A DNA stretch of 50,693 bases, taken from the NCBI GenBank assembly GCA_017621815.1, contig JAGASK010000004.1, forward strand, positions 1 through 50,693. The letters are read 5' to 3'. Of the stretch, positions 19,855 through 39,994 are shown piece by piece (position 1 is the stretch's first letter; each line of letters begins with the position of its first letter). A program made the translations under genes and the position numbers. The notes beneath the pieces were generated by a model. The model was not told the origin of the DNA. It saw nothing but the letters and a program-made list of their open reading frames with translations, and made no database searches. Origin of the DNA: Lachnospiraceae bacterium (GTDB lineage: Bacteria; Bacillota; Clostridia; Lachnospirales; Lachnospiraceae).

Positions 19855-21348
19855 ATGGATAAAACGGGATTAAAATTAATGACAGTATGCACAGCAGGAG
19901 TGTTGGCACTTAGCGGCTGTGTCAATTCAAAAACCACTGATGGTGAAGCAGAGGCAGTTGGTATCTATGAAGCAGAGGAAGCGCAGCTTTCCCCAAATCT
20001 GTCAGTTAAGACCGGCCTGAGCGGTTTTTCGGGTTCCGGATATGTGGAAGGCTTTGAAGCGGACGGAGATGAGTGTAAATTTCAGATTTCCGTTGAAGAA
20101 GACGGATTTTACGATTTGCAGTTTACAACAGCCAATATTGGCGGGTATAAGGAGAATTATGTTTTGCTGGACGGAGAATCTGTGGGCAGCCTGAAAAGTG
20201 AAAATGATTCTTTTACAGAAGAAGCAATGAAAAGAAATTTTCTGACAGCAGGAGAGCATGAAATAACCGTATCGAAATACTGGGGATACATTGCGCTTGA
20301 TAAATTAACAGTGCTGAAAAGCATAGATTTGCCGGAGGATTATTATCAGGTTACGGCAAAGCTCAGCAATGAAAATGCAGATGACTGTGCCAGAAGGCTT
20401 ATGAGCTATCTGGCTGATAATTATGGAAAAAATATTTTGTCCGGACAGTATTGTGATAAGGGCTTATACGGTCATGAGATGGCATGCATCTGGGCTGAAA
20501 CAGGAAAATTCCCGGCTATGGTGGGGCTTGATATGATCGAGTATTCACCGTCAAGGGCAGCCAATGGCAGCCAGGGTGAGAGCATTAAATACGCAAAGCA
20601 GGCATGGGAAGCAGGAGCAATCGTAACCATGTGCTGGCATTGGAATGCACCCGAGCCTTATCTGACAGGGCAGTGGTACAGTGGTTTTTATAAGGATTAT
20701 ACGAATATAAATCTTGATAAGATTATGGATGGCAGTGATGAAGAGGGATATGCGCTGCTTTTATCAGATATGGATGTCATTGCGGTTCAGCTGCAGGAAT
20801 TACAGAAAGCAGGCGTTCCTGTTTTATGGAGACCTCTCCATGAAGCAAGCGGAGGTTGGTTCTGGTGGGGAAATTGTGAACCCGAATCCTATATAGCATT
20901 ATACCGACTGATGTATGAAAAGTTTACAAATGAGTATGGACTCAATAATCTGATTTGGGTATGGAACGGTCAAAGCAAAGAATGGTATCCTGGGGATGAT
21001 GTGGTAGATATTGTGGGAGAAGATATTTATCCCGGTGAACAGGTATATTCTTCACAGATTAATAAGTTTATGGAAGTGCATGAATATGCGGATTCCAATA
21101 AAATGACAGTGCTGTCTGAAAACGGCTGTTTATTTGACCCGGATTTGGCGGTCAGGGACGGGGCAATGTGGGGGTATTTCGGAACCTGGGGCGGAGAGTT
21201 TGTTTCAAAGTCGACCACGTTGAATGTTTATTCGGAACAGTATACGGACAAGGAAATGTTAAGCAAGGTATATAATCATGAAAATGTCATTGTCCTGGAT
21301 GAGCTTCCTGATTTAACCTCTTATCCCATCAGGGAGGATGCAGAGTAA
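19855..21348 (+). CDS. GH26 beta-mannanase lipoprotein with CBM35-like domain
   Basis: This enzyme should hydrolyse beta-1,4-mannan outside the cell. The 497-residue protein has a lipobox (LSGC, Cys22). A CBM35-like beta-sandwich follows at about 38-155, starting YEAEEAQL and ending in YIALDKLTV, then a GH26 catalytic barrel at about 170-480. The expected GH26 acid/base is Glu330 in RPLHEASGGWFWWG and the nucleophile is Glu422 in LSENG. GGAG 5 bp before the ATG supports the start. It is the first gene of the operon. Mannan specificity is inferred from GH26 plus CBM35; some GH26 enzymes act on other beta-glycans. Confidence 0.88.
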   Translation: MDKTGLKLMTVCTAGVLALSGCVNSKTTDGEAEAVGIYEAEEAQLSPNLSVKTGLSGFSGSGYVEGFEADGDECKFQISVEEDGFYDLQFTTANIGGYKENYVLLDGESVGSLKSENDSFTEEAMKRNFLTAGEHEITVSKYWGYIALDKLTVLKSIDLPEDYYQVTAKLSNENADDCARRLMSYLADNYGKNILSGQYCDKGLYGHEMACIWAETGKFPAMVGLDMIEYSPSRAANGSQGESIKYAKQAWEAGAIVTMCWHWNAPEPYLTGQWYSGFYKDYTNINLDKIMDGSDEEGYALLLSDMDVIAVQLQELQKAGVPVLWRPLHEASGGWFWWGNCEPESYIALYRLMYEKFTNEYGLNNLIWVWNGQSKEWYPGDDVVDIVGEDIYPGEQVYSSQINKFMEVHEYADSNKMTVLSENGCLFDPDLAVRDGAMWGYFGTWGGEFVSKSTTLNVYSEQYTDKEMLSKVYNHENVIVLDELPDLTSYPIREDAE

Positions 21349-22053
21349 ATGGCATGGACAAAGAAGAACAAAGCAAATACGGAAGAGGATTTATATCAGA
21401 GCAGAAAAGACAGAAAAAAAACTTTTGGTCCTGACAGTAATTTTATGTATTTTATGACAAAAGCAGGTCAGGTCATCATTTTGAATCTGCTGTGGCTTTT
21501 GTCCTGCATACCGGTTTTTACCGCCGGGGCAGCGACTGCCTCTTTGTATTATGCGATGATGAAAAATATCCGGAGAAACCGCGGTTATCCGGTAACAGAG
21601 TATTTATCGTCTTTTAAAAGGACTTTTGTAAAGGGAAGCATTCTTACTTTTGCTGCAGGCATATGGTTTTATCTTCTTTATTACCTGCGGACGATTGCAC
21701 TTATGGGGGAAAATGATACAGGTATTTTCTTAAGCCGGATTTATACGACGCTTATGATTGTAACAGCAGCGGTTCTTATTTATCTTTTTCCGGTTCTTTC
21801 CAGGTTTACAATGAAAATGACATCTATGGTGAAGCTTGCTTTTGTTATGGCGTTCAGATATGCAGGTTATACTGTTCTGATGCTTGCCGTAACTGCAGTT
21901 TTAGTTTTTATTTGGTTTTACTGTCTGCCTGTACCGGTAATTCTTTTTTTACCGGGAGCATGGTGTTATGTATGCACCTTTATGATAGAAAAAGCGCTTC
22001 GGAAATATATGCCGGCACCTGACGGAAATGAAGATGCATGGTATTACGAATAA
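21349..22053 (+). CDS. DUF624 / YesL-like membrane protein
   Basis: This 234-residue protein has about five hydrophobic helices and the YesL-like signature LLWLLSCIPVFTAGAATASLYY near residue 45. YesL-type proteins sit in sugar-ABC operons of Firmicutes; their role is unknown, though they are suspected transporter accessories. It starts one base after the GH26 stop. A second DUF624 protein lies at 37091, so each solute-binding protein gene in this operon has a DUF624 gene beside it. Confidence 0.8.
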   Translation: MAWTKKNKANTEEDLYQSRKDRKKTFGPDSNFMYFMTKAGQVIILNLLWLLSCIPVFTAGAATASLYYAMMKNIRRNRGYPVTEYLSSFKRTFVKGSILTFAAGIWFYLLYYLRTIALMGENDTGIFLSRIYTTLMIVTAAVLIYLFPVLSRFTMKMTSMVKLAFVMAFRYAGYTVLMLAVTAVLVFIWFYCLPVPVILFLPGAWCYVCTFMIEKALRKYMPAPDGNEDAWYYE

Positions 22054-22072
22054 AGAAAGGCATGGTATTAAC

Positions 22073-25000
22073 ATGAAACTGAGGAAAAGGAATAAACAAC
22101 TGATAGCAGTGTTTCTGGCTGCGGCAGAAACCGCAATGGTGCTGCAGACCGGTACGATACCTGTAAAGGCAGAAGGCTCCATGACGCAGGAGGATGCAAA
22201 AGAAATTGTCAGCACTTATTCTACAGTGGGCTCGGTGCCGGGTTACGCTGATTATCTGGCAGAGTATGCAGATGCGGTATATCCTGAGATAACAGTGGAA
22301 ATAAACGCATCTGACTATGTTCTTTATATGGAAAATGATGTAGAAGTGGAACCTGACATCTATACCGATTATGAGGGAATGCAGGGCGACAGCGTGCTTA
22401 CTGCGGAAACCGGATACATTGAGTTTGAAGCAGAAGTGCCGGAAACAGGTTTTTATCAGCTTAAAGTTGAATATTATCCGGTAGAAGGCAAGAACTCTGA
22501 AATTCAGAGAAGTTTCTTTGTGGACGGGGAACTGCCCTATGGGGAACTGTCATTGATTGAGTTTTCACGCATATGGTCTACGGATGTGGCCCAGAAAAGC
22601 TTTGCGGAAGGAATTTATAATGTTGTCTGGAATAAGGATAATCAGGGCAATGATATGAAGCCTACTGCTGTTGAAATTCCGGAATGGGTCGTGTCTGATT
22701 TATATGATAATAACGGCTACATTACGGAACCTCTTTGCATTTATCTGACAAAAGGAAGTCATACCATTTCCATTAACGCCCAGAGGGAGCCTATGCTGAT
22801 TCGCAGGCTGATTTTAACAAATAAAAAAGAAATAAAGGACTATGCGGAAGTGAAAAAGGAATGGGATGCTGCAGGAGCGCAGAATACAACAGGCGTTGCT
22901 GTGGAAATTCAGGCTGAAAATGCAGCCAAAACTTCTTCACAGATGTTGTATCCCAAACAGGATCAGTCTTCGCCTGCGGTATATCCTGCCAGCGCAAAAG
23001 AACTTCTGAATAATACTATCGGAGGTGAAAGCTGGGGAGATGCCGGGCAATGGATTGAATGGGAGTTTGATGTACCTGAAACCGGTTATTACAATATTTC
23101 ATTATTTGATAAGCAGAGTTTTATGCGGGGAATTTATGTATCGCGTAAGATATTCATTGATGGGGAAGTGCCTTTCAGTGAACTGGAAGATTATGGATTT
23201 ACGTACGATTCCTCATGGAGAACTGATATCCTTCAGGATGAAGAAGGCAATGTTTATGATTTTTATCTGGAGGAAGGAACCCATACCATCCGTATGGAAG
23301 TGGTGCTTGGTGACTTTTCACAGGTTATTGCCAGTGTGCAGGATTGTGTATCACAGCTGAATTCGATTTACCGGAAAGTAATCCGTATAACCGGTGTCAG
23401 TCCTGATACCTACCGGGATTATCAGATTGAAGCTTCCCTTCCGGGATTAAACGGAGAGATGGTGGCAGTCAGGGACCAGCTGAATGAAGCCATTGATGAT
23501 TTGAGAACAGCGGCGGGGCGCACTTCCGATAAGGAAACAGTTCTGATTACCATGAGAGACCAGCTTGATTATCTGATAGAGGACGAAGAAAGATTTGTAA
23601 AGGTTGTATCTACTTTTAAGCAGAATGTAAGAGCCTGCGGTACGTGGATTACGCAGGTAATAGACCAGCCTCTGCAGATTGACAGATTGAATGTCTATTC
23701 GCCCGAAGAAACAATTTCGGTCAGCTCCGATTCCGCTTTGGATAAACTTGGGTATGAATTAAAGAGATTGTATTATTCCTTCATTATTGATTATAACTCC
23801 CTGGGTGCAACAGATTCGGAGGAAAAAGAAAATAAAACGATTACACTTTGGATTGGTACCGGACGTGACCAGGCAAATGTAATCAGGTCTTTGATTGATG
23901 AGTCATTTACCGGCGTGTATGGAATTAATGTAAATGTGCAGCTGGTGGATATGAACACACTGCTTCGTGCAGAACTGGCAGGAGAGGGACCTGATGTGGC
24001 GATCCAGGTGGCAAATACCAATGGTATTGCCGGCGCAGTGCTGAATACGGGTAATGATACGCCTGTTAATTACGGTCTTAGAAATGCGGTGCTTGATCTG
24101 ACACAGTTTGAAGATTTTGAAGAAGTGGCGGACAGATTTTATGACAGTGCAATGACTGCGTTTGAGTTTAACGGGGCAGTATATGCGTTGCCGGAAACTC
24201 AGACCTTCCCGGTCATGTTCTACAGAAAAGATATCCTTTCAGAGCTGGGACTTGAGGTTCCTGAAACATGGGATGAGGTGAAGGTAGCCATGTCGGTGCT
24301 TGCCAAGAACCAGATGGAATTCGGAATTCTTCCTTCGGAACAGATTTATGCAATGCTGCTGTATCAGAACGGCGGGGAATATTATAACGAGGGCGGTATT
24401 TCATCGGCGCTTGATTCCGATATTGCCATTAATACCTTTAAGGAATACTGTGAATACTACACTGATTACGGTCTTGACAGATGGGCAAGTGTGGAAGAAC
24501 GTTTCCGTACCGGAGAATGTCCCCTTATTATTGCGGATTATACAGTATACAACAATCTGGAGGTATCCGCTCCCGATATTGCGGGACTGTGGAATTTCGC
24601 AATGGTGCCCGGAACGGTGAAAGAAGACGGAACAGTTGACCATTCCGTAGGCTGTACGGGACTTGCAAGCATGATTATGGCAGATACAGAGGATCCGGAT
24701 GCCTGCTGGGAATTTTTGAAATGGTGGACCAGTGCTGATACCCAGACATTGTTTGACAGGGAAATGGAATCCCTGATGGGTTCTGCAGCAAGAGTGGCAA
24801 CAGCCAATCAGGAGGCCTTTGAAAACATTCCATGGTCGGTGGACACCTATGAAGCATTGGCAGAAGCCTTTAAATGGGTAAAGGGAATTCCCCAGGTGCC
24901 GGGCGGCTATTATTCATGGAGAAATGTTAATAATGCATTTTATACCGTTACCACGGATACAGATACGGCATCGCCCAGAGAAGAATTGATGGATAAGGTG

Positions 25001-25084
25001 CTTTACATTAATGATGAAATTACCTACAAGCGAAAAGAATTCGGATTACCTACATTGGATGATATGGATAAGGAGGGAAAGTAA
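22073..25084 (+). CDS. Giant solute-binding protein with N-terminal beta-sandwich modules
   Basis: This 1003-residue exported protein ends in a family 1 sugar solute-binding fold (about 605-1003, with ETWDEVKVAMSVLAKNQMEFG and DPDACWEFLKWWTS). Ahead of it are two related beta-sandwich modules, about 75-255 and 275-415. They share VPETGFYQL / VPETGYYNI and FFVDGELPYGEL / IFIDGEVPFSEL and resemble carbohydrate-binding folds. A helical region (416-600) links them to the SBP. The signal peptide ends near VKA33 and has no lipobox, odd for a Gram-positive SBP. The ATG at 22073 is chosen because the signal peptide begins there. Confidence 0.8.
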   Translation: MKLRKRNKQLIAVFLAAAETAMVLQTGTIPVKAEGSMTQEDAKEIVSTYSTVGSVPGYADYLAEYADAVYPEITVEINASDYVLYMENDVEVEPDIYTDYEGMQGDSVLTAETGYIEFEAEVPETGFYQLKVEYYPVEGKNSEIQRSFFVDGELPYGELSLIEFSRIWSTDVAQKSFAEGIYNVVWNKDNQGNDMKPTAVEIPEWVVSDLYDNNGYITEPLCIYLTKGSHTISINAQREPMLIRRLILTNKKEIKDYAEVKKEWDAAGAQNTTGVAVEIQAENAAKTSSQMLYPKQDQSSPAVYPASAKELLNNTIGGESWGDAGQWIEWEFDVPETGYYNISLFDKQSFMRGIYVSRKIFIDGEVPFSELEDYGFTYDSSWRTDILQDEEGNVYDFYLEEGTHTIRMEVVLGDFSQVIASVQDCVSQLNSIYRKVIRITGVSPDTYRDYQIEASLPGLNGEMVAVRDQLNEAIDDLRTAAGRTSDKETVLITMRDQLDYLIEDEERFVKVVSTFKQNVRACGTWITQVIDQPLQIDRLNVYSPEETISVSSDSALDKLGYELKRLYYSFIIDYNSLGATDSEEKENKTITLWIGTGRDQANVIRSLIDESFTGVYGINVNVQLVDMNTLLRAELAGEGPDVAIQVANTNGIAGAVLNTGNDTPVNYGLRNAVLDLTQFEDFEEVADRFYDSAMTAFEFNGAVYALPETQTFPVMFYRKDILSELGLEVPETWDEVKVAMSVLAKNQMEFGILPSEQIYAMLLYQNGGEYYNEGGISSALDSDIAINTFKEYCEYYTDYGLDRWASVEERFRTGECPLIIADYTVYNNLEVSAPDIAGLWNFAMVPGTVKEDGTVDHSVGCTGLASMIMADTEDPDACWEFLKWWTSADTQTLFDREMESLMGSAARVATANQEAFENIPWSVDTYEALAEAFKWVKGIPQVPGGYYSWRNVNNAFYTVTTDTDTASPREELMDKVLYINDEITYKRKEFGLPTLDDMDKEGK

Positions 25085-26014
25085 ATGGCATCGAATGAAG
25101 CAATGGCTGTTGCAAAGAAACAGAGCAGGCTCAGCTATCAGATTAAGAAGAATAAGGCCTGTTATATCATGCTGGCGCCTTATTTTATCCTGTTTTTTCT
25201 GTTTACGGTTTTGCCGGTATTAGCCTCTATAGCGCTGAGCTTTACTTATTTTAATATGCTGGAGATGCCTACATTTAATGGCTGGAACAATTATGTCAAG
25301 CTGTTTTTGGAGGATGACATTTTCCTGGTATCCTTAAAGAATACCCTGATTTTTGCAGTGGTAACAGGTCCTGTCAGTTATCTGCTGTGCCTTTTGTTTG
25401 CATGGATTATCAATGAATTTTCCAGTAAATTAAGAACTCTGCTTACTTTAATCTTTTATGCGCCGTCAATCTGCGGAAATGCTTATATGGTATGGAGTCT
25501 GATACTTTCCAGTGACCGATACGGGTACTTAAACGGTATTCTGCTTAAGCTTGGCGTGATTAATGAGCAGAAGCTGTGGATGCAGGATGCAAAGTATATT
25601 CTTCCCTGCCTGATAGTGGTACAGCTTTGGCTGTCACTTGGTACCGGCTTCCTTTCTTTCATAGCAGGTCTTCAGACTGTGGATAAAAGTTTGTATGAAG
25701 CGGCAGCTTTGGACGGTGTGAAAAACCGCTGGCAGGAGTTATGGTATGTAACGCTGCCGGCTATGAAGCCCCAGCTGATGTTCGGTGCGGTTATGCAGAT
25801 AACACAGTCCTTTGCCGTAGCCGATATTTCCATTCAGTTGGCGGGGAATCCTTCTGTTAACTATGCCGGTGCAACGGTCGTTACACATCTTTTGGACTAT
25901 GGTTCCACCAGATTTGATATGGGTTATGCATCTGCGATCGCGACAGTTTTATTCCTGCTTATGGTGGGCACAAATAAACTGGTTCAGAAATTATTAGGAA
26001 GGGTGGGAGAATAA
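25085..26014 (+). CDS. Sugar ABC transporter permease, MalF/UgpA type
   Basis: This 309-residue permease of the MalF family has six or so membrane helices and forms half of the transport channel. The EAA loop that contacts the ATPase begins at Glu205 (EAAALDGVKNRWQELWYVTL). AGGAGG lies 9 bp before the ATG, and the gene starts directly behind the giant SBP gene, its probable partner. Its mate follows without a gap at 26015. No ATP-binding subunit is encoded here, so a shared MsmX-like ATPase is presumed. Confidence 0.9.
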   Translation: MASNEAMAVAKKQSRLSYQIKKNKACYIMLAPYFILFFLFTVLPVLASIALSFTYFNMLEMPTFNGWNNYVKLFLEDDIFLVSLKNTLIFAVVTGPVSYLLCLLFAWIINEFSSKLRTLLTLIFYAPSICGNAYMVWSLILSSDRYGYLNGILLKLGVINEQKLWMQDAKYILPCLIVVQLWLSLGTGFLSFIAGLQTVDKSLYEAAALDGVKNRWQELWYVTLPAMKPQLMFGAVMQITQSFAVADISIQLAGNPSVNYAGATVVTHLLDYGSTRFDMGYASAIATVLFLLMVGTNKLVQKLLGRVGE

Positions 26015-26893
26015 GTGGCAAAGAAAAAATTTCGCTTTTTTAAACCCAGGGCAAAGAAGCTGAACCGTTCCGTTGCGGGAAACGGACTGTTGTTTTTTAT
26101 CATGGCGATCTGCGGATTCTTTATGGCGCTTCCCCTTGTAATGATTATAAACAACTGCTTAAAGCCTCTGGATGAAATTTATCAGTATCCGCCCAGGATA
26201 CTTGTAAGAAACCCTACCCTGGAGAATTTTACAGATTTGTTTACCATCATGAGCGACTCCTGGGTACCTTTTTCCAGGTACATATTGAATACCATTATTA
26301 TTACCGGTTTAGGAACGGTAGGCCATGTTATTTTGGCTTCCCTGGCTGCTTACCCGTTGGCAAAGCATGAATTTCCGGGAAAGAAAATCCTTTTCAATAT
26401 GGTAGTGCTGTCCATGATGTTTTCCTGGACGGTAACCCAGATTCCAAACTATATGATTATCAGCTGGCTGGGGATTAATAATACTTATCTGGCATTGATT
26501 CTTCCGGCATGCTCTTACGGTATGGGGTTGTATCTGATGAAACAGTTTATGGAGCAGCTCCCCACTTCTCTGATGGAATCGGCAAGACTGGACGGTGCTT
26601 CGGAATATCAGGTTTTCTGGAAAATTGTAATGCCCAATGTAAAGCCGGCATGGCTGACACTGGCGATTTTCCAGTTCCAGCAGATGTGGGGCAATACAGG
26701 AAGCATGTTCCTTAGAGATGAACAGTTGAAGCCCCTGCAGTTTGCGCTTCAGCAGATTTCTGCCGGCGGTACCGCCAGGGCAGGTGCTGCAGCTGCTGTT
26801 ACGTTTATTATTGCGGCAGTGCCGATCATCTTTTTCCTGGCGTGCCAGAGCAACGTACTTGAAACCATGACAACTTCCGGTATGAAGGATTGA
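26015..26893 (+). CDS. Sugar ABC transporter permease, MalG type
   Basis: This 292-residue MalG-family permease is the second half of the first channel. Its EAA loop begins at Glu188 (ESARLDGASEYQVFWKIVMP). It starts at a GTG directly after the TAA of the upstream permease, with a GGGTGGGAGA stretch as ribosome-binding site, so the two subunits are translated as a pair. Six membrane helices are expected, with the N-terminus inside. Confidence 0.9.
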   Translation: MAKKKFRFFKPRAKKLNRSVAGNGLLFFIMAICGFFMALPLVMIINNCLKPLDEIYQYPPRILVRNPTLENFTDLFTIMSDSWVPFSRYILNTIIITGLGTVGHVILASLAAYPLAKHEFPGKKILFNMVVLSMMFSWTVTQIPNYMIISWLGINNTYLALILPACSYGMGLYLMKQFMEQLPTSLMESARLDGASEYQVFWKIVMPNVKPAWLTLAIFQFQQMWGNTGSMFLRDEQLKPLQFALQQISAGGTARAGAAAAVTFIIAAVPIIFFLACQSNVLETMTTSGMKD

Positions 26894-26905
26894 TAGGAGG
26901 GCAGG

Positions 26906-28411
26906 ATGAAAAAGCATAAATTATTAAGAAAAGCAGCTGCCTTCCTGTTTGCAGCCGCAGTAAGCATTTCATTTTACGGTGAAACAGTATATGCGGAAGA
27001 GCAGCCTTATGATACCTATAATTATGATTACCGCGGAAATATTGTGCTTACCCCGGCAGCCTATGTGCCAAGCGGTTCAGTGACCGGTTTGTCTGTGGGC
27101 ACTACAAACTTTAAGGAGCCTCAGGATCTGTGTGTTGCGCCTGACGGCCTTGTTTATGTAGCGGATACCCAGAATAACCGGATTGTTGTGCTGAGCGAAG
27201 ACATGACACAGTTGGTCCGGATTATTGACAGTTTTGACAGAAACGGAGAGGCAGATGGCTTTAATCAGCCCTATGGCGTCTGTGTTTCTGAGAGCGGATA
27301 TCTGTATGTTGCGGACTCCATGAACAAAAGGGTTGTAATTCTGACCCCTGAAGGCGGTTTTGTAAATATTATTGATAATCCCCGGTCTGAAATTCTGGAA
27401 GAGGGGTTTGACTTTATTCCCATAAAGGTAACTGTAGATTATGCGGACAGGGCATATGTAATTTCAAAGAATGCATTTGAAGGAATTCTTGTTTTTGAAA
27501 GTGACGGAAGCTTTACAGGATATTTCGGAACCATTGATGTTAAGATTACGCTTTGGGAAAAGTTCTGGAGAAAGATTGCAACGAAAGAAGAGCGTTCCAA
27601 ACAGCAGCTGTATATTCCTACCGAATTTACGGGAATGGATGTGGACAGCGGCGGATTCATATATGCTACAAATATTGACTCGGACGGCGTACAGGCGGTA
27701 AGGCGTTTAAACCCTCAGGGAAAGGACGTAATCCAGAAGGGTGAAAACGAAAATGTAGGCGGAGATTTGCGTGTATATACTTACGGTAAGTACAGCGGAC
27801 CCAGTGAAATCACGGATGTTGTATACAGGGGAAAGGGAATTTATTCTCTGCTTGACAGAAAAAGGGGAAGAATTTTTACCTACGATAAAGAAGGAAATCT
27901 TCTGTATATCTTCGGCGGTCTGGGAACCCAGGAAGGAACCTTTACCACGCCGGTAGCCATTGAAGTGATAGGTGACCAGCTTATCGTGCTGGATGCTTAT
28001 TATGGGGCAATATTGAAATTCGGCGAGACAGAGTATGGCAGCCTGATAAATGAAGCTGTGGGGCTTCGGTATGATGGGGATGAAACCAAGGCAATTGAAA
28101 TATGGCAGAAGGTTTTGAAGCTGGATGAGAATAATGAGCTTGCCAATTCAGGTATCGGTAAAGCATATCTGACGGCAGGGGATAATAAAACAGCCATGAA
28201 ATATCTTGAGCTTGGAATGAACAGAAAGTATTATTCTGTGGCCTGGAAACGTTACAGAAATGAAATCCTTACAGAAAACATGAATACAATCATGACAGTG
28301 ATTTTGGTTCTGATTGCCGTGATGATTGTATACAGGAAATTTTTGAAGCGGCTGATTAAAGAAAAGAGGGCGCAGAAGAAAGGATTAAAGGAAGGGGGAC
28401 TTATAAGATGA
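26906..28411 (+). CDS. Exported NHL-repeat protein with TPR and C-terminal membrane anchor
   Basis: This 501-residue protein has a signal peptide ending near VYA, then NHL-type beta-propeller repeats (about 55-370) with motifs such as PDGLVYVADTQNNRIVV and SGYLYVADSMNKRVVI. A TPR-like helical region at about 385-435 and a single membrane helix near 455-475 follow, with a strongly basic cytoplasmic tail. The propeller and TPR thus face outward, tethered near the permeases. NHL propellers usually bind proteins or glycans; the job here is unknown. Its stop overlaps the YIP1 gene start by 4 bp, so the two are probably coupled. Confidence 0.75.
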   Translation: MKKHKLLRKAAAFLFAAAVSISFYGETVYAEEQPYDTYNYDYRGNIVLTPAAYVPSGSVTGLSVGTTNFKEPQDLCVAPDGLVYVADTQNNRIVVLSEDMTQLVRIIDSFDRNGEADGFNQPYGVCVSESGYLYVADSMNKRVVILTPEGGFVNIIDNPRSEILEEGFDFIPIKVTVDYADRAYVISKNAFEGILVFESDGSFTGYFGTIDVKITLWEKFWRKIATKEERSKQQLYIPTEFTGMDVDSGGFIYATNIDSDGVQAVRRLNPQGKDVIQKGENENVGGDLRVYTYGKYSGPSEITDVVYRGKGIYSLLDRKRGRIFTYDKEGNLLYIFGGLGTQEGTFTTPVAIEVIGDQLIVLDAYYGAILKFGETEYGSLINEAVGLRYDGDETKAIEIWQKVLKLDENNELANSGIGKAYLTAGDNKTAMKYLELGMNRKYYSVAWKRYRNEILTENMNTIMTVILVLIAVMIVYRKFLKRLIKEKRAQKKGLKEGGLIR

Positions 28412-32566: not shown

Positions 32567-33583
32567 ATGGAAAAGGCTGAGCAAAAACAAAAATTTTCCC
32601 TGAAAGCCATTCAGGATAAATATCAGGAAATAAAAGCGGATACACAGTTTGCCAATGACCGGAAACGCTGGGCTTCCAATATAAAGAAGTTCATTCTGGG
32701 AGTGTTCAGGCTGGTTATTATAGTGGGAATCTGCTACGTTATTCTGGGGCCGGTTATCGGTATTATCAGCAGTTCGTTTTTTTCGGATGCGGATAACTAC
32801 AACACCATGGTATATCTGATTCCTCAGGAGCCTACTTTAGAGCGCTATCAGCTGGCAATTAAGTATCTGGATTATGGCAAAACCCTGATATCATCACTGG
32901 CTTATTCTCTGTCCCTGATGCTGATACAGGTATTTATCTGTTCCATGGTAGGATACGGGTTTGCAAGATACAAATTTCCTTTGAAAAATTTATTGTTTGC
33001 CTGCGTAGTTGTTATGATTGTAATACCTACCCATACAATTATGCTGCCGTTGTATATGTCATTTGCAAAATTTGATGTTTTTGGAATTATAAAATTATTG
33101 AAAGGTTCGTCTGTCAACCTTTTGTCTACGCCGGTACCTATGTATATTATGACATTTTTCGGCTGTGGGCTTAGATCGGGACTTTATATTTACATTTTTA
33201 ACCAGTTCTTCCGGGGGCTTCCCAAGGAAATTGAGGAAGCGGCATTTGTGGATGGAGCCGGTACATGGTATACCTATTTTCGTATCATGCTTGTAAATGC
33301 AATCCCGTCTGTTATTACCGTAGCTATTTTTTCTATGGTATGGCAGTACAATGATACATTTTATGCGAAGTTATTTTTGATTAGCGACGATATTGTAATC
33401 AGTAAAAAGATTTCCACCATTCAGGCAACGATTTCCAATGTTGAGAAGATATATGATCCCAATATTCAGGAATTATATCTGGATGCAGGTGTAGTTCTGA
33501 TTATGATACCTATTATAATTATTTATGTTGCTCTTCAGAAATACTTTATAGAGGGGGTAGAGCGAAGCGGTATTGTCGGATAG
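32567..33583 (+). CDS. Sugar ABC transporter permease, second MalG-type subunit
   Basis: This 338-residue MalG-family subunit has an unusually long soluble N-terminus of about 45 Lys/Glu-rich residues before the first helix. The EAA loop is at Glu224 (EAAFVDGAGTWYTYFRIML). AAAGGAGAG precedes the ATG. With the 31628 gene it forms a second complete channel in the same operon, next to the triple-repeat lipoprotein and the second solute-binding protein. Confidence 0.88.
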   Translation: MEKAEQKQKFSLKAIQDKYQEIKADTQFANDRKRWASNIKKFILGVFRLVIIVGICYVILGPVIGIISSSFFSDADNYNTMVYLIPQEPTLERYQLAIKYLDYGKTLISSLAYSLSLMLIQVFICSMVGYGFARYKFPLKNLLFACVVVMIVIPTHTIMLPLYMSFAKFDVFGIIKLLKGSSVNLLSTPVPMYIMTFFGCGLRSGLYIYIFNQFFRGLPKEIEEAAFVDGAGTWYTYFRIMLVNAIPSVITVAIFSMVWQYNDTFYAKLFLISDDIVISKKISTIQATISNVEKIYDPNIQELYLDAGVVLIMIPIIIIYVALQKYFIEGVERSGIVG

Positions 33584-33640
33584 ACATATCAAGCTTTACT
33601 CAAAACAATTCAACTACATATAATAAGGAGGATGGAAAAG

Positions 33641-35551
33641 TTGAAGGTTAAAAAAATTATGGCATTATTCCTTACTGCAGCTATGACAGCCGGTATGCTC
33701 GGCTGCGGAGGAAGCGGTGCGACAACAGAAACCAGCAATGAAACTACTGCAGAAGCTGCAGAGGATGCTGCGGAAGAAGCAGAAGAGACAGAAACTGCCG
33801 AAGAAGAGCAGACGGAGCAGGAAGAAGGAACCGGAGAGGTAAGCCTTGATTTTGAAGACGGCTTATTCGGATTTGTAGGAAATGATAAAACTGCAAATTC
33901 CGCAGCCGATGATTCTGTATTTTCAGTGGAAGATTACAATGGTTCAAAGGCTTTAAAGGTAACACCTCAGGGGAAAATGCCTTATGTGGGCATTCAGGCA
34001 GATGCACTTCTCGGGGACAATGCTTCTTCTCTTAAGACAATTGAATTAACTGTCGGTACGGAGAATCCTGACGGTGAATTCTTTGCGACTTCAGGTAATA
34101 TTTATGCATTCTTAGGAGAAGATAACGAGAAGGTAAATGAGGGCTGGTCAGTATATCTGGAAAATGCAAATCCCAAGACTGTCAGCTATACAATTCCGGA
34201 TGACAAGTCCTTTGGGGCAGGCAACTATTTTGTAGTTTCCCTGGAAACCGACAACGGTAAGAGCAAGGGCCAGACACAGGCAAATATGTATATTGATAAT
34301 ATTGTATTTAAGGATGCTTCAGGCAACGTGCTTGCAGCTGACAGCAGCGCGGAATATGTTGCAGCCAGCACAGGTGCTGACAGGTCTAACCTGTTTGCAG
34401 TAACCGGCGCCGTTGAATTTGCGGATTTCGCATGCACAGGAGACGGCTGGGGACAGAATGGCTTTGATATGCCCGAAGAAATCATTGCTGCGTTAGTTCC
34501 CGGAAGCGTTGTAGAAATTACATACAGTTCCGAATCAGGAGATATGTGGATCGTAATGCCTGATGCAGCAGCGGGCTGGATGAGAGTAGGCCAGGGCAAT
34601 TCAGATGGAAGCGGCAGTGACGATGCATATGTTAATAATTCTAAGAATACCTGCCAGATTACTTATGAGCAGATTGCAGCTGTATGCGGAGATGATGTAT
34701 CCACATGGGGAGCAAGAATGCAGTGTGAATCCGATACAGCATGGGAAGTACAGGCTGTTAAGGTAGGACAGCAGGCTCCTTCTTATGCATTGGCAGATGC
34801 TGTTGAATTTGCAGATTTTGCATGTACAGGAGACGGCTGGGGACAGAACGGCTTTGATATGCCTGAGGAAATCATTGCGGCATTAGTTCCCGGAAGTGTT
34901 GTAGAAATTACATACAGCTCCGAATCAGGAGATATGTGGATCGTAATGCCTGACGCAGCAGCGGGCTGGATGAGAGTAGGTCAGGGTAATGCCGACGGAA
35001 GCGGAAGCGAGGATGTAGTTTCCGATGGCAGCAAGTGTTATGTAACCTATGAACAGATTGCGGCAGTATGCGGTGATGATGTATCCACATGGGGAGCAAG
35101 AATGCAGTGTGAATCCGATACAGCATGGGAAGTATACAGTGTAAAGGTTGGAACAGCAAAGGAATTCAAGGCAATTAAGAATCTTGTTGCATTCCCTGAT
35201 TTTGCTGTCAGCGGAGACGGCTGGGCACAGGCAGGCTTTACAATGCCTCAGGAAATTCTTGACGCATTGGTACCCGGCAGTGTAGTAACCATTTCTTACA
35301 GCAGTGAAAACGGAGACCTTTGGGTTGTTATGAATGAAGCGGCAGCGGGCTGGATGAGAGTAGGCCAGGGCAACGCTGATGGAAGCGGCAGTGACTGCGC
35401 AGCATTCAACGGCAGCACCTGCCAGGTAACTTATGAGCAGATTGCAGCTCTTTGCGGCGATGATGTATCTACATGGGGAAGTACCATGCAGTGTGAAGCG
35501 TCAGGCGCATGGGAGGTTTACAGCGTGGCAGTAGGCCAGTCAGCAGAATAA
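33641..35551 (+). CDS. Lipoprotein with three near-identical glycan-binding-like modules
   Basis: This 636-residue lipoprotein has Cys22 in GMLGC, then a Glu/Thr-rich linker of about 45 residues, a beta-sandwich-like domain (about 65-230), and three C-terminal modules. They begin near DNA positions 34409, 34799 and 35183, so the unit is about 128-130 residues. Each holds GDGW, SGDMWIVMPDAAAGWMRVGQG or a close variant, and CGDDVSTWG. Exposed Trp residues suggest carbohydrate binding; no catalytic motif is seen. The start is set at TTG 33641, because AAGGAGG touches the ATG at 33632 but is spaced correctly for the TTG. Confidence 0.75.
   Translation: MKVKKIMALFLTAAMTAGMLGCGGSGATTETSNETTAEAAEDAAEEAEETETAEEEQTEQEEGTGEVSLDFEDGLFGFVGNDKTANSAADDSVFSVEDYNGSKALKVTPQGKMPYVGIQADALLGDNASSLKTIELTVGTENPDGEFFATSGNIYAFLGEDNEKVNEGWSVYLENANPKTVSYTIPDDKSFGAGNYFVVSLETDNGKSKGQTQANMYIDNIVFKDASGNVLAADSSAEYVAASTGADRSNLFAVTGAVEFADFACTGDGWGQNGFDMPEEIIAALVPGSVVEITYSSESGDMWIVMPDAAAGWMRVGQGNSDGSGSDDAYVNNSKNTCQITYEQIAAVCGDDVSTWGARMQCESDTAWEVQAVKVGQQAPSYALADAVEFADFACTGDGWGQNGFDMPEEIIAALVPGSVVEITYSSESGDMWIVMPDAAAGWMRVGQGNADGSGSEDVVSDGSKCYVTYEQIAAVCGDDVSTWGARMQCESDTAWEVYSVKVGTAKEFKAIKNLVAFPDFAVSGDGWAQAGFTMPQEILDALVPGSVVTISYSSENGDLWVVMNEAAAGWMRVGQGNADGSGSDCAAFNGSTCQVTYEQIAALCGDDVSTWGSTMQCEASGAWEVYSVAVGQSAE
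34409..35551 (+). repeat. Three in-frame coding repeats of about 390 bp
   Basis: Repeat units start near 34409, 34799 and 35183. Units 1 and 2 encode identical residues over long stretches (for example from VEFADFACTGDGW through AGWMRVGQGN), yet differ at many third codon positions. Near the unit ends they are identical even at DNA level (GATGTATCCACATGGGGAGC). Unit 3 is clearly diverged. Confidence 0.9.
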
Positions 35552-35582: not shown

Positions 35583-37019
35583 ATGAAAATGTATAAGAAA
35601 TTGCTTGCACTGGGTTTAAGCCTTTCTATGATCGTTGGCTTAACCGCATGCGGTGGCGGATCAGCAGAAACAAGTAACAATGCAGCTGAAACAACCGAAA
35701 GCGCTTCTAATGAAGCGGCAGAGACAACAGAGGATAGTTCTGAAAGCAGCGCTGCATCCACAAACAGCGGGGAAAAGAGAGTCATTAAGATTGGTACATG
35801 GTATGACCATTATTATGACAGCACTCATGCTGACATACATGACGACCCCAGCGTGGCAGATGAAGAACTGGCCCAGGCACATTTTGATATTGTAAAAGAA
35901 GTGGAAGAGAAGTATAATGTTGAAATCGAGTTCGTAAATCTGACTTATACAGGTATTCAGGAGTCTATCAACACTTCCATTCTTGCAGGACAGCCCGACT
36001 GCGATATTTATGAAGTTGATTTAAGCTTTGGTATCGGTGCGGCTTTAAACGGATATGCAACAAATCTGGAAGAAATTCTTCCTGAGGATTCAGATATCCG
36101 CAATGACCAGATGGTATTTTCACAGGTAGATATCGGATTGGATGAAGGTATTTATCTGTTCCAGTCCAACAGCGCCGAAATGCTTCTTGCAAATACATAT
36201 ATGCTTGCTTTTAATAAGCAGATGCTGGATGAAGCAGGTCTTGAAGATCCCAATGCGCTCTATGAAAGAGGGGAGTGGACATGGGATAAGTGGAGAGAAT
36301 ATCTGCTGGCGCTTACCCAGGATACAGATGGAGACGGCGTAACTGATGTTTATGGCTACGGTTCACGTTGGGATTTCCTTGTTTATAACCTGTTAATGAG
36401 CAACGGAACAGCTATTGCGGCAGGTGAAACAGAAAGCTTATCATCTCCTGAAGTAACAGAAGTACTTGATTTCATTTATAATGTGTACAATGTTGACCAT
36501 GTGGCAAATCCCTGGAATTCTGATGACTTTGACTACAATCAGAACTGCTATATGGATGGAAGAGTTGCGTTCTGGATTGATGCAGCATGGATTTCCTCCG
36601 CAAATGAAGATGCAAATCTTGAATTCGATGTTGTTTGGTGTCCTTGGCCCATCGGACCTTCCGGTGATGAAGCTACCAACAAGTTTAAAAACGTATCTTC
36701 AGGTAATGCATGGATGATTCCTGCAGGCGTTGAAGACCCTGAATTCGTATACAATGTATTCTATGACTGGCAGAACTGGTATCATGGAGATACCGACCTG
36801 CGTGACGGTGATTTGACATGGTGGGAAGATTGTGCAATTACAGAAGAAAACTATGCAGTTATGGAGTATATGGGAGCAAGAGGCGCATTTGACCTTTGGA
36901 ATTCCCTTGGACTTGAATGGGATTGGTCACAGCTGTTAAACGGTGAAATGACTGCTGCACAGTTCCAGGAAACATATAAACAGAATGTGCAGGATGCACT
37001 TGATGTATTCTATAAATAA
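35583..37019 (+). CDS. Sugar-binding lipoprotein (family 1 extracellular solute-binding protein)
   Basis: This 478-residue protein has a lipobox (LTAC, Cys23), a Ser/Thr/Glu-rich linker and a two-domain solute-binding fold typical of oligosaccharide importers. A DTDGDGVTDVYG loop near residues 246-257 looks like a calcium site, which is common in this family. Many exposed Trp residues (WTWDKWREY, WCPWPIG, WDWSQLL) fit sugar stacking. GGAGG lies upstream of the ATG at 35583. It is the likely receptor for the second permease pair; a hairpin terminator follows immediately. Confidence 0.88.
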   Translation: MKMYKKLLALGLSLSMIVGLTACGGGSAETSNNAAETTESASNEAAETTEDSSESSAASTNSGEKRVIKIGTWYDHYYDSTHADIHDDPSVADEELAQAHFDIVKEVEEKYNVEIEFVNLTYTGIQESINTSILAGQPDCDIYEVDLSFGIGAALNGYATNLEEILPEDSDIRNDQMVFSQVDIGLDEGIYLFQSNSAEMLLANTYMLAFNKQMLDEAGLEDPNALYERGEWTWDKWREYLLALTQDTDGDGVTDVYGYGSRWDFLVYNLLMSNGTAIAAGETESLSSPEVTEVLDFIYNVYNVDHVANPWNSDDFDYNQNCYMDGRVAFWIDAAWISSANEDANLEFDVVWCPWPIGPSGDEATNKFKNVSSGNAWMIPAGVEDPEFVYNVFYDWQNWYHGDTDLRDGDLTWWEDCAITEENYAVMEYMGARGAFDLWNSLGLEWDWSQLLNGEMTAAQFQETYKQNVQDALDVFYK

Positions 37020-37028
37020 TGATTTATT

Positions 37029-37063
37029 GCGCCCGTATCCCATGGGTACGGGCGCAGATTTTT
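37029..37063 (+). terminator. Strong hairpin terminator or attenuator inside the operon
   Basis: GCGCCCGTA (37029-37037) pairs with TACGGGCGC (37047-37055), extended by CCC and GGG around a tiny loop, and is followed by a T-rich stretch (GATTTTTG). It sits right behind the solute-binding protein stop, where it would reduce transcription of the downstream DUF624, GH5 and LacI genes and protect the upstream mRNA. Confidence 0.75.
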
Positions 37064-37090
37064 GATAATAGAAAGTTTGCAGGGGTTTTC

Positions 37091-37726
37091 ATGTTTCGCA
37101 GTGATAATTTATTCAGCCGCTTTATGAATGTACTGTTTGATGTTATATGCATCGGGGTGCTGTGGGTAGTCTGTTCTGTTCCGGTTATAACAGCAGGTGC
37201 GGCAGCTACGGCCGCATACTATGCAATGAGTAAAACTGTCAGGCATAAAACCGGTTATGCCGCAAAAGAATTTTTTCATTCTTTTCGGTTTAATTTCAGA
37301 CAATCCATTCCACTGACAATTGCATTCTGGATTATTTTAATTGTGCTTGGAGTGGATATCTGGTATGTGTGGATGAATGACAGCAGGATGAACAGTGCTG
37401 TTTTTATGGTTCTTGTTTTTGTGCTGTTTCTGACAGCGGGAATTACGATATATGCCTGCCCGATTTTATCCAGGTTTGATAAGGGTAATTTGGAACTGAT
37501 AAAAACCGCGGGATTTGTTATGTTCAAATACCTGCCGGTCACAATTCCTTTACTTTTTATCTTTGGAGCGGCATGTATTTTAATCTATCTGATGCCATGG
37601 GCTATTTTGATTATTCCGGGGGCGTATATGTTTGGATTGACCTTTCCCATGGAAGCAATTTTAAAAAAGATGATGCCGGAAGCCGATGAGGGAAGTGAAG
37701 AAGCGGAAAAGTGGTATTATCAATAA
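37091..37726 (+). CDS. DUF624 / YesL-like membrane protein, second copy
   Basis: This 211-residue protein has about five helices and the family signature LWVVCSVPVITAGAAATAAYYAM, closely matching the paralogue at 21349. The start at ATG 37091 has AGGGG about 6 bp upstream. An earlier in-frame start would place the terminator hairpin inside the gene. It follows the second solute-binding protein and precedes the GH5 gene, probably as an accessory to the second transporter. Confidence 0.8.
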   Translation: MFRSDNLFSRFMNVLFDVICIGVLWVVCSVPVITAGAAATAAYYAMSKTVRHKTGYAAKEFFHSFRFNFRQSIPLTIAFWIILIVLGVDIWYVWMNDSRMNSAVFMVLVFVLFLTAGITIYACPILSRFDKGNLELIKTAGFVMFKYLPVTIPLLFIFGAACILIYLMPWAILIIPGAYMFGLTFPMEAILKKMMPEADEGSEEAEKWYYQ

Positions 37727-37778
37727 AGGGGATTTATAAGCAGATAAATAAGCAGTTTAGACGCTGGATAGGAGAATT

Positions 37779-38963
37779 ATGAAAAGACCGGGAAAAGTAT
37801 CATTGGCAATTACAGCAATCATATTATTACTTACAGGATGTGGGAAAAACGGAAATGTTACTGCAGTTGAAGGCGCGTCTGCTGATGCAGAAGCTTCTTT
37901 GCAGGAAGAAGGGATTAGTATGGAAGAGATTACGGCAAAGGAACTTGTCAGCAATATGAAAATAGGATGGAATCTTGGAAATACTATGGACAGTCTTAAT
38001 TCTTCGGCATTAAAGACTATGCCTGCAGTGAACTGGGAAACCGCATGGGGTAATCCTGTTACCAGTAAAGAGCTTATAGATGCCGTTATTGACAGAGGAT
38101 TCAATGTCATCAGAATACCGGTGAGCTGGAATGACCATATTCTTGTGTCCGAAAATTGGAAAATTGAAGAAAGCTGGATGGACAGAGTTCAGGAAATTGT
38201 AGATTATGCTTATGACAGGGGAGCATATGTTATTTTAAATACTCATCATGAAAGCTGGTATGGAACTTATTATGATAAAGAAGAACGGTCGGCGGAAATA
38301 CTGCAGGCTGTATGGAGCCAGATAGCGGAGCGGTTTCAGGATTATGATGAGCATTTGATTTTTGAAGGGCTGAATGAGCCGAGAAAAATCGGAACAGATG
38401 TGGAGTGGACCGGCGGTGACGAAGAAGGCTGGGATGTTGTAAATAATCTGAATGCCGTGTTTATCAAAACCATCAGGGAAAGCAGCGGAAACAATCCTTA
38501 CAGGATTCTGATGATTCCGGGATATGCGGCAAACTGCTGGGAGGGAATAAAGCATATTGCAATTCCGGATGACAATAAAATTATTATTTCCGTACATGCT
38601 TATGAGCCTTATGATTTTGCGCTGAATGTACAGGGAAGAGGTACCTGGGATCAGGATACCTCTAATATAGATATGATTATGAAATCCTTAGATGAGCTTT
38701 TTATTTCCAAAGGAGTTCCTGTAATCATAGGAGAATTCGGCGCTATGTATAAAGATGCGGAAAACAATGAACAGGAGCGCGCCGACTGGGCAAAATACTA
38801 TGTCAGCGCAGCCGCAAAAATAGGAGTTCCATGTATCTGGTGGGATAATGGCGCTTTTGCAGGAAATGGAGAATTATTCGGATTAATAGACAGAAAGACT
38901 TGTGAATGGAAGTATCCTTTAGTCGTAGAGGGGCTGATGAAGGGTATTTCACAGACAGATTGA
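37779..38963 (+). CDS. GH5 endo-beta-glycanase lipoprotein
   Basis: This is a secreted lipid-anchored endoglycanase of 394 residues with lipobox LTGC (Cys21) and a short linker. A single GH5 barrel begins at about 60 (IGWNLGNTMDSL). The acid/base is Glu200 in FEGLNEPR and the nucleophile is Glu319 in IIGEFG; NTHHESW also fits the family. The NLGNT and ETAWGNP motifs recall the GH5_4 group (endoglucanase or xyloglucanase), but mannanase or glucomannanase activity is also possible given the GH26 partner. AGGAG precedes the ATG. Confidence 0.85.
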   Translation: MKRPGKVSLAITAIILLLTGCGKNGNVTAVEGASADAEASLQEEGISMEEITAKELVSNMKIGWNLGNTMDSLNSSALKTMPAVNWETAWGNPVTSKELIDAVIDRGFNVIRIPVSWNDHILVSENWKIEESWMDRVQEIVDYAYDRGAYVILNTHHESWYGTYYDKEERSAEILQAVWSQIAERFQDYDEHLIFEGLNEPRKIGTDVEWTGGDEEGWDVVNNLNAVFIKTIRESSGNNPYRILMIPGYAANCWEGIKHIAIPDDNKIIISVHAYEPYDFALNVQGRGTWDQDTSNIDMIMKSLDELFISKGVPVIIGEFGAMYKDAENNEQERADWAKYYVSAAAKIGVPCIWWDNGAFAGNGELFGLIDRKTCEWKYPLVVEGLMKGISQTD

Positions 38964-38971
38964 GGTGCTAA

Positions 38972-39994
38972 ATGGCAAAAGCAGTAAAAATGAAGGATAT
39001 TGCAGAGCGATTGAACATCAGTACAATGACAGTTTCAAAGGCTTTGTCCGGAAAACCGGGGGTCAGTGAACCTATGCGGGAAAGGATAAAGATGCTTGCT
39101 CTTGAAATGGGATATATTTCTTCCGGGGAAGCCAGAGAGGAAACCAAAAAAAGCTACAATATAGGTGTTATCCTGGCTAATTATTATACAGAAAAATGTG
39201 CCACATTTTATTGGAAATTATATCAGGAAATCAATACAAGGGCGGTAAAGCAGGATTGCTTTGTGCTGCTTGAAATTTTAAGCGTAGAGGCAGAACAGAA
39301 CAAAGAAATGCCGAAAATGGTGCGTGAAAATAAAGTAGACGGTCTTCTGGTGCTGGGATGCATGGAAAGCGGATATTTGAAATCTCTTCTGGAAACTGTC
39401 CGTGTTCCCGTGGTTTACATGGATTTTTATGATGACAGTATTTATGAAGACAGCGTCATCTCCAACAGCTTTTACGGCACTTACCAGATTACCAATTATC
39501 TTTTCGGCAAAGGGCACAGGGAAATTGCTTTTGTAGGCACGTTGTTCAGCACAAAGAGTATTACGGACCGTTTCCTCGGATATGAAAAGGCCATGATAGA
39601 GCATGGTGAAACTATAAGGGAAGAGTGGATTATTCCTGACAGAGACGGGGAAAGAGATTGTTATGAGACGGTCAGCCTGCCGGAGAAAATGCCTACGGCG
39701 TTTGTATGTAATTGCGATTTGACGGCAAGCAGGCTGATTAAACAGCTGCAGGAAAAAGGATACCGGGTGCCGGAGGATTTTTCGGTCGTGGGGTATGATG
39801 ATTACCTTTATCCGGGATTATGCAATGTGGAAATCACTTCTTACGGTGTGGATATGGAACAGATGGCTGCTACGGGAATTGAGATTATGCTGAATAAAAT
39901 AGAAGGTTTGGATTATCAAAAAGGACTTCATGTAGTTGAGGGTTACCTGGTAGAAAGAAAAAGCGTTACAGGCAGAAATCCGGAAGGAAATTAA
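38972..39994 (+). CDS. LacI-family transcriptional regulator
   Basis: This 340-residue regulator has an N-terminal helix-turn-helix (MKDIAERLNISTMTVSKALS, about residues 7-26), the hinge, and a periplasmic-binding-protein-like sensor domain (YNIGVILANYYTEKCATFYW onward, SVVGYDDYLYPGL). It is the last gene of the glycan operon, 8 bp behind the GH5 gene, and is therefore the obvious local regulator, with an oligosaccharide as likely effector. Possible binding sites are the palindromes at 19694 and 40031. The ribosome-binding site is weak (AGGTG). Confidence 0.9.
   Translation: MAKAVKMKDIAERLNISTMTVSKALSGKPGVSEPMRERIKMLALEMGYISSGEAREETKKSYNIGVILANYYTEKCATFYWKLYQEINTRAVKQDCFVLLEILSVEAEQNKEMPKMVRENKVDGLLVLGCMESGYLKSLLETVRVPVVYMDFYDDSIYEDSVISNSFYGTYQITNYLFGKGHREIAFVGTLFSTKSITDRFLGYEKAMIEHGETIREEWIIPDRDGERDCYETVSLPEKMPTAFVCNCDLTASRLIKQLQEKGYRVPEDFSVVGYDDYLYPGLCNVEITSYGVDMEQMAATGIEIMLNKIEGLDYQKGLHVVEGYLVERKSVTGRNPEGN

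Follow-up and report, generated by a model that had tools for sequence, protein, structure and literature searches.

Known importers and the Lachnospiraceae locus

The closest described relatives of the system analyzed here are the CUT1 ATP-binding cassette (ABC) importers of B. subtilis, S. pneumoniae and C. bescii, which draw on a shared MsmX, MsmK or UgpC ATPase. Our subject is a fifteen-gene operon at positions 19855-39994 of contig JAGASK010000004.1 from a Lachnospiraceae bacterium (GCA_017621815.1). The window, by which we mean the whole stretch of 50,693 nt, is the complete contig 13 of a 3.5-Mb host genome in 52 contigs. The locus shares with these importers the MalF/MalG-type permeases with EAA loops, the solute-binding proteins (SBPs), the lack of a local ATPase and an orphan UgpC-type ATPase elsewhere in the genome. 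It differs from them by combining two permease pairs and two SBPs in one unit with an NHL-repeat protein, a Yip1-family protein and a DUF5696 protein, and by the first of its binding proteins (SBP1), which carries CBM-like domains and no lipobox. Instead of the single permease pair per system that defines CUT1 importers, we found two pairs in one conserved unit.

A Gram-positive polysaccharide utilization locus (gpPUL) unites a degradative enzyme, a carbohydrate transporter and a regulator in one locus. The operon holds all three, namely GH26 and GH5 enzymes, two permease pairs and a LacI regulator. The gpPULs of Roseburia and E. rectale, as described in the accessible part of PMC5320581, contain the same mix of glycosidases, ABC transporter parts and a regulator, but no two-pair module and no NHL, Yip1 or DUF5696 proteins were seen there. 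Such a two-channel module was likewise not seen in the accessible parts of PMC13278490 and PMC10318527, the latter describing a glucan locus with a single transporter. The C. bescii xylan locus brings together two CUT1 transporters, AxoFGE and XloEFG, with glycosidases, some secreted and some cytoplasmic, under common regulation, and no NHL, Yip1 or DUF5696 protein is named in it (PMC8579813); the comparison is by description, and the locus may or may not be the same module, a point that the accessible parts of PMC12285236 and PMC5865380 do not settle. In the literature searched, which leaves out most subscription journals, we found no mention of DUF5696 and nothing relevant on NHL and Yip1 proteins together with sugar permeases or binding proteins.

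We interpret the operon, with a probability of about 0.6, as a β-mannan or mixed β-glucan utilization locus arranged round one conserved eight-gene compound uptake machine, the genes of which are marked as core in the following list. All fifteen open reading frames (ORFs) lie on the + strand and are given in the order of their Pfam assignments.

19855..21348, +, CBM35-GH26 protein, lipid-anchored, likely endo-β-1,4-mannanase (Pfam GH26, E 7e-66; CBM_35, E 1e-19)
21349..22053, +, first DUF624 membrane protein (Pfam PF04854)
22073..25084, +, SBP1 (core), no lipobox; N-terminal β-sandwiches and helical part, C-terminal solute-binding domain (Pfam SBP)
25085..26014, +, MalF1 permease (core; Pfam BPD_transp_1)
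26015..26893, +, MalG1 permease (core; Pfam BPD_transp_1)
26906..28411, +, NHL-repeat protein (core) with a weak TPR-like part and a C-terminal membrane anchor (Pfam NHL)
28408..29040, +, Yip1-family multi-pass membrane protein (core; Pfam PF04893, E 7e-15)
29052..31628, +, DUF5696 protein (core) with an N-terminal membrane anchor and a GH129/GH101-like ectodomain, probably non-catalytic
31628..32551, +, MalF2 permease (core; Pfam BPD_transp_1)
32567..33583, +, MalG2 permease (core; Pfam BPD_transp_1)
33632..35551, +, lipid-anchored glycan-binding protein with three CBM65 repeats (Pfam CBM65_1, 3 stretches)
35583..37019, +, SBP2, lipid-anchored solute-binding protein (Pfam SBP_bac_1)
37091..37726, +, second DUF624 membrane protein (Pfam PF04854; the ORF opens at 37019, start 37091 likelier)
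37779..38963, +, GH5 endoglucanase, lipid-anchored (Pfam Cellulase, E 3e-69)
38972..39994, +, LacI-family regulator (Pfam LacI and Peripla_BP_3)

This inventory bears out most of an earlier note on the same DNA, which had described genes on one strand with small gaps (the largest is 52 bp in the ORFs as listed), two MalF/MalG pairs, two SBPs, two DUF624 proteins, lipid-anchored GH26 and GH5 enzymes and no ATP-binding subunit. Pfam confirms the doubled set and finds an ABC ATPase in none of the fifteen genes, and lipoboxes were read straight off the sequence in GH26, GH5, the CBM65 protein and SBP2, four in all. The several stop/start overlaps claimed in that note are reduced to those of NHL/Yip1 (-4) and DUF5696/MalF2 (-1). 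The apparent overlaps at SBP1 and the second DUF624 gene are start-codon artefacts, because both starts lie further downstream: that of SBP1 (1018 aa as listed) more likely at 22073 than at 22028, and that of DUF624 more likely at 37091 than at 37019, since a hairpin described below sits within the longer ORF. Start 37091 leaves a gap of 71 bp to SBP2.

Conservation of the eight-gene core

Loci were anchored on DUF5696 and scored with profiles of the window genes and related sequences. The 116 scored loci comprise the window, 17 named loci from metagenome-assembled genomes (MAGs), 80 plus 16 further neighborhoods and two named plasmids, and DUF5696 is present in 114 of them; the 17 near relatives by DUF5696 are mostly from Lachnospiraceae MAGs. 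Gene order was counted in 94 loci, the window included, that have at least 7.6 kb upstream and at least 2.6 kb downstream of DUF5696. As L016 and L090 are one locus taken twice (identical over the stretch compared), these 94 loci are really 93, and the 50-locus sets used below are really 49.

The order SBP1-MalF1-MalG1-NHL-Yip1-DUF5696-MalF2-MalG2 recurs in 84 of the 94 loci, in 63 of these with separate NHL and Yip1 genes and in 21 with NHL and Yip1 fused in one protein; chance is thus no explanation for the gene order. NHL plus Yip1 were found in 94/94 loci. Six loci have the NHL-Yip1-DUF5696-MalF2-MalG2 block without SBP1-MalF1-MalG1 in front of it, and four are further variants of the core order. 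The junctions within the core are tight, with a median gap of -1 between DUF5696 and MalF2 (94 loci). The comparison of gene order among relatives, a check proposed in the earlier note, therefore gives a positive answer. The doubled channels are a widespread module, strongly conserved in its order across Bacillota, and not a local oddity, and, as that note had missed, both permease pairs form one conserved module with NHL, Yip1 and DUF5696. A complete module also lies on plasmid pNP243 of Butyrivibrio fibrisolvens (NZ_CP146964.1, 3967-23937; L161), with a GH43 gene on its upstream side; a histidine kinase/response regulator pair in divergent orientation adjoins it.

Co-occurrence was analyzed in 250 family-level and 398 phylum-level genomes, of which G000 and G173 belong to both samples. 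At the family level, full-length DUF5696, for which only matches of E 3.5e-105 or better were counted (86 matches), occurs in 51 genomes; any match of E up to 0.001 is found in 88/250 genomes, those beyond the 51 being partial or weak. The same 51 genomes possess the matching Yip1 protein and the N-terminal half of SBP1 (a script matched the DUF5696 set with that of Yip1, and the SBP1 set is identical on reading both listings). Roughly one in five of the family-level genomes sampled (51/250) thus contains the module, some of them in several copies. Copy numbers are lower bounds, since no more than 4 candidates per genome were scored for DUF5696 at the family level, 12 for Yip1, 5 for the SBP1 N-terminal half and 3 in each of the phylum-level searches. 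A Yip1 gene lies no more than 4.5 kb from full-length DUF5696 in 86/86 matches. Owing to this limit, 16 Yip1 matches had no DUF5696 match listed with them; DUF5696 is present in 14 of these 16 loci, and the remaining two (L174, L178) stop at contig ends. At the phylum level, DUF5696 was counted in 41 of the 52 genomes with any match, and SBP1 occurs in 41/41 genomes with full-length DUF5696. SBP1 itself was counted there in 43 of 49 genomes; the match in G346 is a fragment at a contig start, and G256, G299, G336, G365, G570 and G587, with partial or weaker matches, were left out.

Pairwise distances of the seven core genes are correlated at 0.91-0.97 (50 loci), and at 0.88-0.93 with SBP2. In the Paenibacillus-like multi-copy genomes, the trio L117/L118/L147 and the pair L119/L145, the members of each coming from different genomes, are nearest neighbors in all seven core genes, and L144, L146 and L131 vary.

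Components, energy source and substrate of the module

The two halves of the module are conserved to different degrees (50 loci). The SBP1 binding domain has a mean p-distance of 0.49 and 73 columns at 90% identity, as compared with 0.70 and 9 columns for SBP2. MalF1 and MalG1 vary least of all parts (mean p-distance 0.39 and 0.42), and the values for MalF2 and MalG2 are 0.54 and 0.56. From these alignments, it seems that SBP2 follows the substrate and that SBP1 and its pair stay constant. The identity between MalF1 and MalF2 is 22%, and between MalG1 and MalG2 23%, which rules out that one pair recently arose from the other by duplication. Nor is the second permease pair dead, as the EAA loops are kept: their Glu and Gly were found in 85/85 MalF1 and 82/82 MalG1 sequences aligned, in MalF2 Glu in 92/92 and Gly in 91/92, and in MalG2 Glu in 84 plus Asp in 4 of 88 and Gly in 88/88. 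All four permeases should therefore contact an ATPase.

A Gram-positive SBP that lacks a lipid anchor needs another means of retention. We found a lipobox in only 2/85 SBP1 sequences and in 49/66 SBP2 sequences, some truncated ORFs included; the SBP1 of the window has none, and some SBP1s appear by eye to have a membrane-like N-terminus instead. The N-terminal half of SBP1 has no Pfam match. The predicted model of SBP1, of low confidence (mean of the predicted local distance difference test, pLDDT, 51.8), matches CBM35/CBM6 chains among others in Foldseek, the rows of which include weak matches of low template-modeling score to unrelated large proteins, insecticidal ones included. The only PDB match of SBP2 is an arabino-oligosaccharide-binding protein (5e-11).

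By its sequence, DUF5696 matches only PF18952 (DUF5696) at E up to 0.001; no GH129 or GH101 family model is among its matches, and its profile reaches NagBb among PDB sequences at E 1.5 only. A fold search with the predicted model, in turn, points to a GH129/GH101-like fold with a mutarotase-like domain, a TIM barrel and a C-terminal sandwich, at 13-16% identity to the enzymes NagBb, ZgGH129 and EngBF, which we take to be members of these families. Assignment of DUF5696 to GH13 was rejected, since the fold search ranks GH129/GH101 chains above GH13 ones; in a single-sequence profile comparison, DUF5696 aligned with a GH13-like ORF of the same genome (90% probability, 119 columns), and the comparisons with single sequences of GH5, GH10, GH26, GH31, GH35, GH36, GH3, GH43 and an apiosidase gave nothing. 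Asp649 is kept in 60/96 family members and in 17/17 close relatives aligned. In the region of the acid/base, Asn693 occurs in 80/96 members, Glu reaches at most 16/96 (column 690) and Asp at most 27/96 (column 694); some acid within 688-696 is present in 61/96 members, in 23 of these a Glu, and the model is weak there (pLDDT below 50 for residues 566-736). Among the 96 members, no catalytic carboxylate pair appears to be conserved family-wide, and, judging from this and from the modeled fold, DUF5696 may be a non-catalytic partner. It differs from the GH129/GH101 glycosidases in its membrane anchor and in its position beside ABC permeases in the loci examined, and apparently in lacking such a conserved pair. 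The SLC3 heavy chains 4F2hc and rBAT likewise consist of a single-span anchor and an inactive glycosidase-like ectodomain that accompanies an amino-acid transporter. The likeness is an analogy only, because SLC3 proteins are GH13-like rather than GH129-like and eukaryotic, and their partner is no ABC importer. As for the other two membrane proteins, the NHL protein has a TPR_11 match below its cut-off and a membrane-like segment at 462-480, and Yip1, which belongs to the Yip1 family (PF04893), has five membrane-like segments.

In the host genome, 60 permease domains were matched, 59 of them above the cut-off, but only two ATPases with a MalK OB domain were found. One adjoins its own permease and binding protein. 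The other candidate, an orphan MsmX/UgpC-type ATPase (G000:C44, 193666-194775; UgpC model 508 bits, cut-off 432), is flanked by a PucR-type regulator and a GGDEF gene. When 97 loci were searched with the host MsmX-like protein, five ABC-ATPase ORFs were listed, none of which has the OB_MalK domain; two of them immediately precede SBP1 in the same orientation (L137:2-1190) and look like another ABC type. A MalK-type ATPase gene adjoins the module in only one of the loci examined, the Paenibacillus cellulosilyticus plasmid, where a single ugpC with an OB domain heads the module, one MalK-type ATPase for both pairs. Loss of the shared ATPase MsmK by deletion leaves C. bescii with severely impaired growth on di-, oligo- and polysaccharides (PMC8579813). 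By analogy with this precedent, and given the orphan gene, it is plausible that a shared MsmX-type ATPase energizes these permeases, as the earlier note had supposed.

Turning to the substrate, the best PDB match of GH26 is the GH26 β-1,4-mannanase 3zm8 (1.2e-91), aligned over CBM35 and the catalytic domain, and those of GH5 are the endoglucanase 3ayr, CelD and β-1,3-1,4-glucanases (GH5_4-type). The CBM65 family binds β-glucans and xyloglucan. The first two CBM65 repeats of the lipoprotein are 82% identical in protein and the third is 67-69% identical to either, which points to a recent internal duplication. A GH130 mannoside phosphorylase adjoins the related locus L010, and GH130 relatives were found in six further loci. 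Our best guess from these sequence matches is that the substrate here would be β-mannan, glucomannan or mixed β-glucan, so that the range proposed in the earlier note holds.

The enzymes next to the core vary across loci. Among 19 representatives of 65 neighbor clusters, we identified GH3, GH130, GH10, GH43 (twice), α-L-arabinofuranosidase, GH31, GH36, GH35, GH28 and apiosidase families, together with a GH106-like protein (below cut-off), a GDSL esterase, a solute-binding protein and a pectate-lyase-like protein; GH26 with CBM65 also occurs among the gene sets beside the core. Representatives L110:12917 and L111:2822 gave no match, and an rRNA methyltransferase (L122) and a weak Peptidase_S55 match (L134) say nothing on sugars. 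Depending on the locus, the core thus stands beside xylan, pectin, arabinan and other enzymes, and this variety rules out a module specific to mannan or glucan.

Two further features bear on the transcription of the operon.

37027..37057, +, strong hairpin directly 3' of SBP2 (14-bp stem, 9 GC pairs, T-run)
19694..19709, no strand assigned, perfect 7+7 palindrome TTGTATA-GT-TATACAA, candidate operator, directly upstream of a TTGACA -35-like hexamer

The hairpin, a candidate terminator, attenuator or 3'-end protector, has a pattern that occurs once in the genome. Near-identical letters follow SBP2 in L003, L004 and L005, a related hairpin is present in L092, and no equally strong one was seen 3' of SBP2 in L006, L019 and L085. 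In 44/82 loci, SBP2 is followed by a stem of at least 10 bp, with 0.8 expected from shuffles, as compared with 0 to 5 of 76-114 loci after SBP1, MalF1, MalG1, NHL, Yip1, DUF5696 and MalF2, 20/108 after MalG2 and 6/30 after the CBM65 gene; this comparison is biased because core genes mostly run straight into coding sequence and SBP2 often does not. The strong hairpin after SBP2 suggests that the fifteen genes do not form one even transcript, and DUF624, GH5 and LacI may be expressed at a level different from that of the core. The palindrome, which lies upstream of GH26, is an exact pattern at a single site in the 3.5-Mb genome and was found in 0/178 loci examined; the upstream palindromes of relatives show no common consensus by eye. 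A LacI operator common to the relatives was thus not found, and the palindrome stays a candidate only. No Rfam family reaches its gathering score within the window.

Outside the operon, the window contains a sodium-pump decarboxylase cluster (13199-18443; carboxyl transferase, gamma and beta subunits, and a pyruvate carboxylase-type subunit) and, just upstream of the operon, an NYN nuclease with LOTUS (OST-HTH) domains (18643-19569). Downstream, an ECF-type sigma factor is followed by a 409-aa ORF without a Pfam match, perhaps an anti-sigma factor (43853-45576, - strand), and IspH (LytB) overlaps the next gene, which encodes a protein with four S1 domains (46349-48404).

Interpretation of the double-channel module

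Under the proposed reading of one compound machine, the surface enzymes GH26 and GH5 would cut the polymer, and the three-CBM65 lipoprotein and SBP2 would bind the fragments and pass them to MalF2/MalG2, the channel adapted to the substrate. SBP1-MalF1-MalG1 would do a polymer-independent job, either the import of a product common to many fibers or the driving or docking of the assembly. NHL-Yip1 and the DUF5696 ectodomain would form a membrane-anchored bridge between the channels and retain SBP1, itself without a lipid anchor, and MsmX would energize both permease pairs. Physical contact between the two channels is what we infer. More tentatively, and with odds clearly below even, the module could represent an undescribed class of compound ABC importers in Bacillota, with two permease pairs, one shared ATPase, a bridge of NHL-Yip1 and an inactive GH129-like DUF5696 'heavy chain', a constant SBP1-MalF1-MalG1 part and a polymer-matched SBP2-MalF2-MalG2 part.

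Several observations weigh against the reading of one machine. The block order is swapped, with SBP1 after the NHL-to-MalG2 block, in L128, L132, L136 and L143, and L121 and L126 have NHL-Yip1-DUF5696-MalF2-MalG2 with no SBP1-MalF1-MalG1 within range. The loss of one half, which the earlier note had suggested looking for, is therefore seen at the level of these two loci but not of their genomes: SBP1 lies on other contigs of both (G307 for L121 and G286 for L126), and the genome thus retains both blocks even where they lie apart. G347 (C43) and G388 (C7) have a strong match to the SBP1 N-terminal half, located some 1.9 kb from the low end of the contig, and no DUF5696 was detected in these genomes. 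Weaker relatives of this half (E 2e-40 to 3e-47) occur in G256:C18, G299:C44, G336:C10 and G365:C65 (another family), in frames of 456-561 aa and hence without the solute-binding half; these four genomes have no full-length DUF5696, and two of them have DUF5696 matches of E about 1e-5 only. The distance correlations partly reflect common descent, because they were made without species-tree control, co-inheritance of the core can come from shared regulation alone, and the constancy of SBP1 could result from contacts with partners rather than from a constant ligand. Finally, in L162 (NZ_CP054609.1, P. cellulosilyticus plasmid, 7564-29187) the core stands beside several LLM flavin-dependent and other oxidoreductases, with no annotated glycosidase in the stretch examined; the machine may thus not be limited to polysaccharides, and the substrate there is perhaps quite different, such as a modified sugar or a sulfonate.

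Two independent ABC importers placed in one operon for joint regulation, one for short and one for long oligosaccharides from a single polymer, with NHL, Yip1 and DUF5696 as accessories of one of them, would account for the EAA loops and the binding protein kept by each pair, as well as for the swappable blocks and for the NHL-to-MalG2 block that can stand without SBP1-MalF1-MalG1 nearby. We nevertheless regard this arrangement as unlikely, given the all-or-none co-occurrence in the 250 family-level genomes and the same two pairs beside xylan, pectin, arabinan and other enzymes; moreover, if both SBPs bound local polymer products, SBP1 should vary like SBP2, which it does not. The import of two product sizes from one polymer, the first option of the earlier note, is weakened for similar reasons (73 conserved columns in SBP1 against 9 in SBP2, pairs kept beside quite different enzymes, 22-23% identity between them), and the alternative named there, that one permease pair has another job, fits better.

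That other job might be mainly that of a sensor, or of an ATP-driven mechanical element working the extracellular assembly, rather than of an importer. The strong conservation of MalF1 and MalG1 and a constant SBP1, mostly without a lipobox, speak for such a role, which is still quite improbable in our view, as the solute-binding domain of SBP1 is a standard one and MalF1/MalG1 fit the models of ordinary sugar permeases, although all matches lie below the cut-offs. It is also doubtful, to about the same degree as for two independent importers, that DUF5696 is an active glycosidase at the membrane that trims captured oligosaccharides and supplies the two channels with one product each. The GH129/GH101-like fold of its model, Asp649 as a plausible nucleophile and the acid that 61/96 members have somewhere in 688-696 would agree with activity, but no single column of the acid/base region keeps an acid, Asn693 dominates there, and the model is weak in that half.

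If the one-machine reading is true, the annotation of many Bacillota loci as two separate ABC transporters is mistaken. To predict substrates from SBP1 or MalF1/MalG1 would then be misleading, since it is SBP2 that would carry the substrate signal. DUF5696, the NHL protein and Yip1, which have had no named role, would then gain a testable function in fiber uptake by gut and soil bacteria.

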